From NCBI RefSeq assembly GCF_001909285.1, contig NZ_MRSV01000001.1:577331-641330 (forward strand): a DNA stretch of 64,000 bases, given 5' to 3'. Below the pieces are notes generated by a model that worked only from the letters and a program-made list of their open reading frames with translations, made no database searches and had not been told where the DNA came from. The position numbers and the translations under genes are program-made. Shown in pieces: positions 19,250 through 20,872 of the stretch. Positions within the stretch are counted from its first letter, which is position 1, and the number at the start of each line of letters is the position of its first letter. This stretch comes from Exiguobacterium profundum. GTDB lineage: Bacteria; Bacillota; Bacilli; Exiguobacteriales; Exiguobacteriaceae.

Positions 19250-19298
19250 GCGAATTCACTCTCTCTGCTACAGTAAGAGCGTAGGAGGGGGAGTTTTT

Positions 19299-20429
19299 AT
19301 GAAAAAAATTGAAATTGAGACGTGGGCACGACGTAAGCACTTCGAGTTTTTCAAAGCGTTTGATGCGCCACATTTCAACGTGACGGCAAACGTAGATGTC
19401 ACGAACCTATATACATATGCAAAGGAGAGCAATCAATCGTTCTTCAAACTCTTTTTATACGGTGCGGTGAGAGCGGCGAACGCGACTCCGGAATTGCGCT
19501 ATCGTATCCGTGGTGAAGAGGTCGTCGAACACGAGGTGGTCCACCCTTCGTTCACGGTCATGTTAGACGAGGATGTCTTCAACTTTTGTGCGGCTACGTT
19601 CTATGAAGATTTACCGACATTCTTACAGGAAGTGACGACGCGGATGGAGCGAGCTGCCGATAAAGTCGTGGTCGGGGATGACGAGCCCGACGACTTACTG
19701 TATATCACGAGTGTTCCGTGGGTCACGTTCACGAGTATCATGCACCCGACGCATCAGCAACAACATGACAGCGTGCCGCGCATCGCCTGGGGCAAGTTCG
19801 AACGTCAAGGCGAGCGTCTGGTTATGCCGTTATCCGTCCAAGCCCATCATGCACTCGTCGATGGAGTACATATCGGTAAGTATTATGAAACGTTACAAGC
19901 ATGGTTAGATCAAGAATTCGCACAGGAGGGGACCGACGTGACAGAAGAGAATGAGTTTGATCGAGCCGTTCGTCTCCGTGAGGATGGACAACTCGAGCAG
20001 GCGAAGCAACTGTTCTTGTCGCTCTTGCGGAAAGATGAAAAGAATCCGAGGCTACATGCGTACTGTGCGTGGTGCTATGACTCGCTCGGTGAAGAACGTC
20101 AAGCGGTCCCGCATTATGAACGGGCCATCCGACTCGGGTTGACGGGGGAAGAGTTGGCGGAATCATATCTCGGACTCGGCAGTACGTATCGGGCACTCGG
20201 ACGATACGCAGAGGCGGAACAGTTATTTAAAGAGGCGATTGAGCAATTCCCGAATCACGGGGCGCTCAAGGTATTTCAAGCGATGACCCATTACAACGTC
20301 GGTCGCCATGAAGAAGCGACGGGAACGTTACTTGAACTGCTTGCAAGTCCGAAAGCGGACGAGAGCATCGCGCGGTACCGGCGTGCCATCGCATTTTATG
20401 CAAGAAACTTAAATGAGACATATGACTAA
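19299..20429 (+). CDS. Chloramphenicol acetyltransferase-like domain fused to TPR domain
   Basis: This 376-residue protein joins two domains. Residues 1-213 match the chloramphenicol acetyltransferase fold: FNVTANVDVTNLY at the start, the mid-part FNFCAATFYED and the catalytic HHxxxDG in QAHHALVDGVHIGKYYE (H183-G189). Residues 214-376 are tetratricopeptide repeats (EQAKQLFLSLLRKDEKNP, YLGLGSTYRALGRYAEAEQL, and others). CAT proteins are normally about 215 residues, so domain one is complete. An AGGAGGGG site and GTG sit exactly at the junction. The acceptor substrate is unknown; many CAT-like proteins do not acetylate chloramphenicol. Confidence 0.85.
   Translation: MKKIEIETWARRKHFEFFKAFDAPHFNVTANVDVTNLYTYAKESNQSFFKLFLYGAVRAANATPELRYRIRGEEVVEHEVVHPSFTVMLDEDVFNFCAATFYEDLPTFLQEVTTRMERAADKVVVGDDEPDDLLYITSVPWVTFTSIMHPTHQQQHDSVPRIAWGKFERQGERLVMPLSVQAHHALVDGVHIGKYYETLQAWLDQEFAQEGTDVTEENEFDRAVRLREDGQLEQAKQLFLSLLRKDEKNPRLHAYCAWCYDSLGEERQAVPHYERAIRLGLTGEELAESYLGLGSTYRALGRYAEAEQLFKEAIEQFPNHGALKVFQAMTHYNVGRHEEATGTLLELLASPKADESIARYRRAIAFYARNLNETYD
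19924..19940 (+). promoter_or_regulatory. Internal ribosome binding site and GTG at the CAT/TPR junction
   Basis: AGGAGGGG (19924-19931) lies six bases before an in-frame GTG (19938, codon 214), just where the CAT fold ends. This would allow a separate 163-residue TPR protein to be made from the same mRNA. Confidence 0.6.
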
Positions 20430-20440
20430 AGGAGAATGAC

Positions 20441-20872
20441 ATGATTTCACTACGTCCGATTGATGCACAAAATTGGTATACATGCTGTCAATTGGCATTA
20501 AGTGACCAACAACAGTCGTATATGGAGCCGAATGCGATTTCGTTACTTCAAGCGATGTACGAACCGACATTACGTCCACGTGCGATTTATGAAGATGAGA
20601 CGATGGTCGGCTTCCTCATGTACAACACAGAACTTGAAGAGTTGGATGCATTGTGGATTTACCGAATCATGATCGACCATGCTCATCAAGGCAAAGGGAT
20701 TGGTCGACAGGCGGCAGAGCTGATGCTTGAAGAAATCGGCGAGGGGAAACCGATTGTCGTCGGCTATCACCTCGAGAACGAGGCAGCGCATCACTTATAT
20801 GGAAGCCTAGGATTCGTTGATGAAGGCCATCGATTCGGTCGTGAAATGGCTGTAATTCGGCGAGGGGAATGA
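20441..20872 (+). CDS. GNAT family N-acetyltransferase
   Basis: This is a 143-residue GNAT. The acetyl-CoA motif is IDHAHQGKGIGRQAAELML and motif B is NEAAHHLYGSLGFVDEG. It resembles spermidine acetyltransferase-like proteins in its start (SLRPIDAQNWYTCCQLALS), yet the substrate is not known. It starts 11 bases after the CAT-TPR gene behind AAAGGAG, so it belongs to that transcript, which ends in the hairpin at 20872. Confidence 0.85.
   Translation: MISLRPIDAQNWYTCCQLALSDQQQSYMEPNAISLLQAMYEPTLRPRAIYEDETMVGFLMYNTELEELDALWIYRIMIDHAHQGKGIGRQAAELMLEEIGEGKPIVVGYHLENEAAHHLYGSLGFVDEGHRFGREMAVIRRGE

Follow-up and report, generated by a model that had tools for sequence, protein, structure and literature searches.

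A CAT-fold acetyltransferase fused to a BH0479-type TPR domain in a conserved gene of Exiguobacterium

Introduction

A gene at 19299..20429 of a 64-kb stretch of Exiguobacterium profundum DNA (hereafter the window, meaning the whole stretch analysed) joins a CAT-like acetyltransferase to a TPR domain, and at the border between the two lie a Shine-Dalgarno (SD)-like sequence and an in-frame GTG. This arrangement raises the question of whether the locus makes one two-domain protein or two products. The original prediction regarded the junction as a kept ribosome binding site, and offered two accounts of it: the merger of two formerly separate genes by loss of a stop codon, or a single gene that yields both a fusion and a free TPR protein. 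Here, we describe a computational analysis of the gene, its relatives in the Bacilli and the constraint on its parts.

Results

One reading frame encodes two complete domains

The gene, which like the parts of it described below lies on the + strand, begins with ATG and comprises 376 codons plus a stop, encoding 376 amino acids without an internal stop codon in the list of open reading frames. It consists of a complete CAT-fold O-acetyltransferase (residues 1-209, 19299..19925) followed by a complete BH0479-type TPR protein (residues 218-376, 19950..20426). Both halves score above the curated Pfam cut-offs: CAT (PF00302) matches residues 2-200 with an E value of 4.2e-36 (125.3 bits against a cut-off of 23.5), and TPR_5 (PF12688) matches residues 259-371 with an E value of 1e-16 (61.7 bits against 24.2). 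The open reading frame list and Pfam together bear out the proposed layout of a single 376-codon frame with a whole CAT fold containing HHxxxDG and then TPR repeats. The TPR half aligns end to end with 23 separate TPR proteins and starts and ends at the same places as these free-standing relatives. The nearest solved structures by sequence are BH0479 (3k9i) for the TPR part (E value of 3.2e-34 over residues 263-375) and type III CAT for the CAT part (approximately 1e-31). This is certainly a two-domain fusion beyond chance.

An AlphaFold2 model of the monomer, built from a 57-row alignment that included 22 of 33 separate TPR proteins plus genome G003 (see below), has a mean pLDDT of 88.5 but a pTM of only 0.57; it replaced a 17-row run that was weak for the CAT half (mean pLDDT 68.7). 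The model contains two confident domains. The last CAT helix spans residues 189-205, the first TPR helix starts at residue 219, and between them residues 210-217 (19926..19949) form a disordered linker with a pLDDT below 50. The CAT half superimposes best on a Bacteroides uniformis O-acetyltransferase, 9xc8 (Z 28.0, rmsd 1.7, 206 residues aligned, about 30% identity), and nearly as well on 3cla (Z 27.7, rmsd 2.0, 208 residues). The TPR half matches consensus TPR superhelices (Z 17.8, rmsd 1.7-2.0, 133-134 residues).

The fusion is old and probably maintained within the genus

The fusion gene was matched in all 19 genomes of the genus, one branch of Exiguobacterium, and 17 of them carry it as a single unbroken frame; named carriers include Exiguobacterium aestuarii, qingdaonense, chiriqhucha, alkaliphilum and aurantiacum. 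The two exceptions are G014, in which the gene is divided between two contig ends and stop codons occur close to the gap (reflecting either an interrupted assembly or an insertion), and G003, in which the body of the CAT is gone and the TPR remains as a free gene. The gene occupies a fixed position, between a DUF402 gene and MarR and MhqO-like genes in 12/12 named loci examined, and as far as these 6-kb loci reach the gene order is DUF402, CAT-TPR, GNAT (variable), MarR, MhqO-like. The variable GNAT gene (20441-20872 in the window) closely follows the 3' end of the fusion, and is absent from that place in loci L123, L125 and L132 and in G003.

The 17 fused orthologues comprise six members of a near clade and 11 of a far clade, and their 17-row alignment leaves out G003 and G014. 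Both halves are under purifying constraint, with dN/dS values of 0.069 (CAT) and 0.046 (TPR) in the near clade and 0.078 and 0.051 in the far clade. Between the two clades, synonymous sites have reached or nearly reached saturation, and dS exceeds 1 for the CAT half within the far clade; dS was likewise saturated between G003 and the near clade, so that dN/dS could not be computed for that pair. The fusion is real and old. We think it probable that it happened once, before the genus diversified, and that selection has maintained the fused form.

Free-standing relatives occur, unlinked, in other Bacilli

Among 398 Bacilli genomes, TPR matches were found in 122 (129 rows). Frames of at least 300 amino acids account for 18 of these rows in the genus, six in a sister genus and six elsewhere (one of the last, in G171, has an internal stop), and the remaining 99 rows lie in frames of 249 amino acids or fewer. 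CAT matches were found in 68 of the 398 genomes: 18/19 in the genus, 0/19 in the sister genus and 50 elsewhere, and all 50 of the latter lie in frames shorter than 300 amino acids. The free-standing relatives in other Bacilli share 45-56% identity with the CAT half and mostly 40-51% with the TPR half. Thus, two formerly separate families have merged, as had been proposed, and the same architecture recurs in 17 of the 19 genomes of the genus while separate, unlinked genes are found elsewhere. Merger of adjacent genes through loss of a stop codon fared less well: no TPR gene was found within the approximately 1.5-kb flanks of the eight nearer CAT relatives (45-56% identity).

The CAT-TPR pairing is a new architecture built from known parts. 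It was not found outside this genus among the 398 Bacilli genomes or in a search of genome contigs, where the 12 full-length matches and one N-terminal fragment were all from Exiguobacterium and five CAT-only matches came from Bacteroidota and Ignavibacteriae bins. In a plasmid search 1442 records matched, none over 80% of the query. No description of a CAT-TPR fusion was found in the titles and opening lines of abstracts listed by literature searches.

Of the 92 rows that lie beyond the family, 31 were inspected for the surroundings of the free TPR genes. Upstream, the closest genes vary between the loci inspected, and a conserved neighbourhood was rejected; they include a proline dehydrogenase-like gene (by eye) and, by Pfam, genes for an alpha/beta hydrolase, a GNAT and an aspartate dehydrogenase. 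A functional link between DUF402 and TPR was also dropped, as a DUF402-like gene lies 3' of the TPR in only 2/49 loci (L042 and L049), with 22% identity to the DUF402 of the window.

The start-like signal at the seam most likely arose by chance

The seam, as read from the sequence, consists of the SD-like AGGAGGGG (19924..19931), the spacer ACCGAC (19932-19937) and an in-frame GTG, codon 214 (19938..19940). The helix and linker boundaries of the predicted structure place this GTG at the domain border, where the original prediction had put the SD, six bases and GTG. These elements could direct a second product, a free 163-residue TPR protein, alongside the fusion: the SD is good, the spacing is suitable and the in-frame GTG stands exactly where free-standing TPR proteins start. 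Within the near clade the GTG, and likewise the GAC that precedes it, is unchanged in 6/6 genes and AGGAGG is present in 4/6. At the aligned place in the far clade both AGGAGG and GTG are absent from all 11 orthologues, so that AGGAGG is found in 4/17 fused orthologues and GTG in 6/17. The predicted retention of a ribosome binding site at the junction is not supported by these counts, nor by the linker: near-clade dN/dS reaches 0.48 at residues 205-217 (a rough value, from 13 codons), compared with 0.07 for the CAT and 0.05 for the TPR domain.

Conservation at the nucleotide level points the same way. Ordered by codon identity within the near clade, the 12 codons from codon 208 come 19th from the bottom among 364 stretches, the opposite of what is expected of a selected ribosome binding site; genes with a second product would be expected to have a conserved internal ribosome binding site and start, and here the junction is among the least conserved codons. 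Moreover, two internal sites with AGGAGG 5-9 nt from a start codon were found in the 70 open reading frames of the window, versus the 1.74 obtained on average when codons are shuffled within genes. Such sites are about as numerous as chance would make them; only the position of this one is notable, and that position had been indicated beforehand by the original prediction. Base-pairing of the local RNA with the SD region is also possible (-16.4 kcal/mol, z -1.74), which argues further against its use. The test of dual products that the original prediction had itself named, conservation of the GTG and SD in homologues, thus comes out largely against them, and we consider a second product unlikely. 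Most likely, the SD-GTG pair arose by chance in a linker under hardly any constraint and does not act as a second start.

One genome has lost the enzyme half and kept the TPR

G003 represents a natural experiment, having discarded its enzyme half while retaining the adaptor. The usual leader is followed by approximately 110 bases unlike CAT and then by a TPR open reading frame with AAAGGAG and GTG, in a gene order like that of its relatives minus the CAT and GNAT genes. No CAT match was found elsewhere in this genome at an E value of 1e-12. The approximately 110-base stretch (L019 / L057) matched only itself in the four genomes searched, and the idea that the segment from leader to TPR is a known mobile element was dropped on that result. 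A free TPR is useful in G003, so the tether is not strictly required.

Because this TPR reading frame survives loss of the CAT with its own SD, a free TPR product is conceivable, and the presence in G003 of a free TPR, with an SD-GTG start close by, speaks for dual products in the fused genes as well. Its SD, though, stands in a different codon register (AGG AGT versus CAG GAG GGG) and its GTG lies two codons nearer the TPR, which is not what one signal inherited without indels would give. This difference, together with a fusion older than the split of the two clades and synonymous sites near or at saturation, by which time an unselected relic should have vanished, makes it very unlikely that the SD and GTG have survived unaltered from the start of a TPR gene that preceded the fusion, even though the GTG lies within a few codons of the starts of free TPR proteins.

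The start of the fusion gene lies beside a hairpin kept in the near clade

Within 19258-19298, the SD of the main start is contained in the 3' arm of a hairpin (-19.1 kcal/mol, z -1.65), and TTTTT comes next, immediately ahead of the ATG. This arrangement is kept in 6/6 near-clade genes; G003 has it too, with altered paired bases, despite its loss of the CAT. The T run is missing from the far clade. The element looks like either an attenuator or a terminator for the upstream DUF402 gene that overlaps the ribosome binding site. A scan for promoters and terminators around the fusion gene gave counts no higher than in shuffled sequences.

The CAT half keeps the His/Asp pair and falls below resistance-enzyme cut-offs

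The CAT half is a member of the CAT superfamily. Its active-site motif, HHALVDG (residues 183-189, 19845..19865), aligns with that of CAT III, such that H184, D188 and R11 are the equivalents of His195, Asp199 and Arg18. These three residues are invariant in 17/17 fused and 17/17 separate CATs, and we predict the His and Asp of HHxxxDG to be catalytic in the fused protein too. Titles of CAT entries in the PDB name Ser148, His195 and Asp199. The Ser148 position is Thr137 in 17/17 fused proteins and either Thr (8/17) or Ser (9/17) in the separate relatives, for which reason the predicted catalysis is not assured.

With CAT III and CAT I as its closest solved structures and with the His/Asp pair and R11 present, the fused enzyme might be suspected of conferring chloramphenicol resistance, the TPR being a passenger. 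Its identity to CATs of solved structure reaches about 30% at best, and the scores of 129.7 bits for type A CAT (NF000491, cut-off 270) and 130.9 bits for the CatA_like_1 O-acetyltransferases (NF033155, cut-off 300) lie far enough below the NCBIfam cut-offs that the protein is not a chloramphenicol acetyltransferase by membership. In addition, the gene sits at a core genomic place, is vertical in the genus and has no mobile context. The TPR is more strongly constrained than the CAT and so is no passenger. We regard a resistance enzyme as highly doubtful.

The TPR half belongs to a family joined to other enzymes

The TPR half is a member of the BH0479 family. Six groove-type residues, R227, D261, E266, S295, R298 and N333, are identical in the protein of the window and in 23/23 separate TPR proteins.

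Other members of the family are fused to enzymes as well. A GNAT-TPR protein of 303-339 amino acids is encoded in six genomes of the sister genus (6/18 of those bearing the TPR; loci L050-L055), and the three scanned matched Pfam Acetyltransf_3 and TPR_5. In G169 (L071), from elsewhere in the Bacilli, a 421-amino acid protein combines HAD_2 with TPR_5. In a TPR tree of 67 rows, made without G014, the six GNAT-fused TPRs and a damaged copy from G037 form one clade (100/98), and the CAT-fused TPRs with G003 form another (100/99). The GNAT-TPR fusions apparently have a single origin, and the separate clades imply that acetyltransferases of two unrelated folds captured the TPR on different occasions. 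We read the TPR as a free adaptor that enzymes have captured repeatedly. Two further observations concern this family: the shortened GNAT-TPR gene of G037 (L056) adjoins an IS605-type TnpB-like gene (by eye), and in L072-L075, a branch of the family, the TPR is N-terminal with an extension behind it, that of L072, the one scanned, having no non-TPR Pfam match.

Discussion

Taken as a whole, the explanation that we find reasonably likely is that one gene makes a single two-domain protein, in which a CatA-like, acetyl-CoA-dependent O-acetyltransferase would be joined by a short flexible linker to a TPR adaptor, probably with no free TPR product. Proteins of the CAT family are homotrimers with the active site at the subunit interface. 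By analogy the CAT half would be expected to work as a trimer, and a trimer carrying TPR arms would be plausible. The invariant residues of both halves lead us to predict an active acyltransferase and a TPR with the binding partner of its free relatives. The enzyme would acetylate a small-molecule hydroxyl through the conserved His/Asp pair, and the TPR may place it beside a partner shared with those relatives.

A TPR family widespread in the Bacilli is here tied to a class of enzyme, and the CAT, GNAT and HAD fusions together offer a handle on what the free proteins bind. One speculative extension, which we think improbable, is that the free TPR of Bacilli serves as a docking module in the acetylation of small molecules or proteins, with CAT, GNAT and HAD enzymes independently fused to it and acting on, or next to, one partner bound in the groove.

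The fusion resembles several known systems in part. The GNAT-TPR proteins of the sister genus have the same C-terminal TPR family and an N-terminal acetyltransferase, but that enzyme has the GNAT rather than the CAT fold and arose from a separate fusion event at another genomic place. The HAD hydrolase-TPR protein of G169 likewise bears this TPR at the C-terminus of an enzyme, which is of the HAD phosphatase type and is found in one genome. BH0479 of Bacillus halodurans (3k9i, TPR_5 PF12688) is a relative of the TPR half over residues 263-375; proteins of its type are free, whereas the TPR described here makes up the C-terminal half of a larger enzyme. Type III CAT (3cla, 6x7q) has the same fold, with equivalents of His195, Asp199 and Arg18 in the fused CAT, which differs in its 29% identity, its Thr in place of Ser148, its C-terminal TPR and its score far below the type A cut-off. 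Finally, the Bacteroides uniformis O-acetyltransferase (9xc8), although the best structural match of the CAT half, is 30% identical to it, and its matched chain of 216 residues contains no TPR domain.
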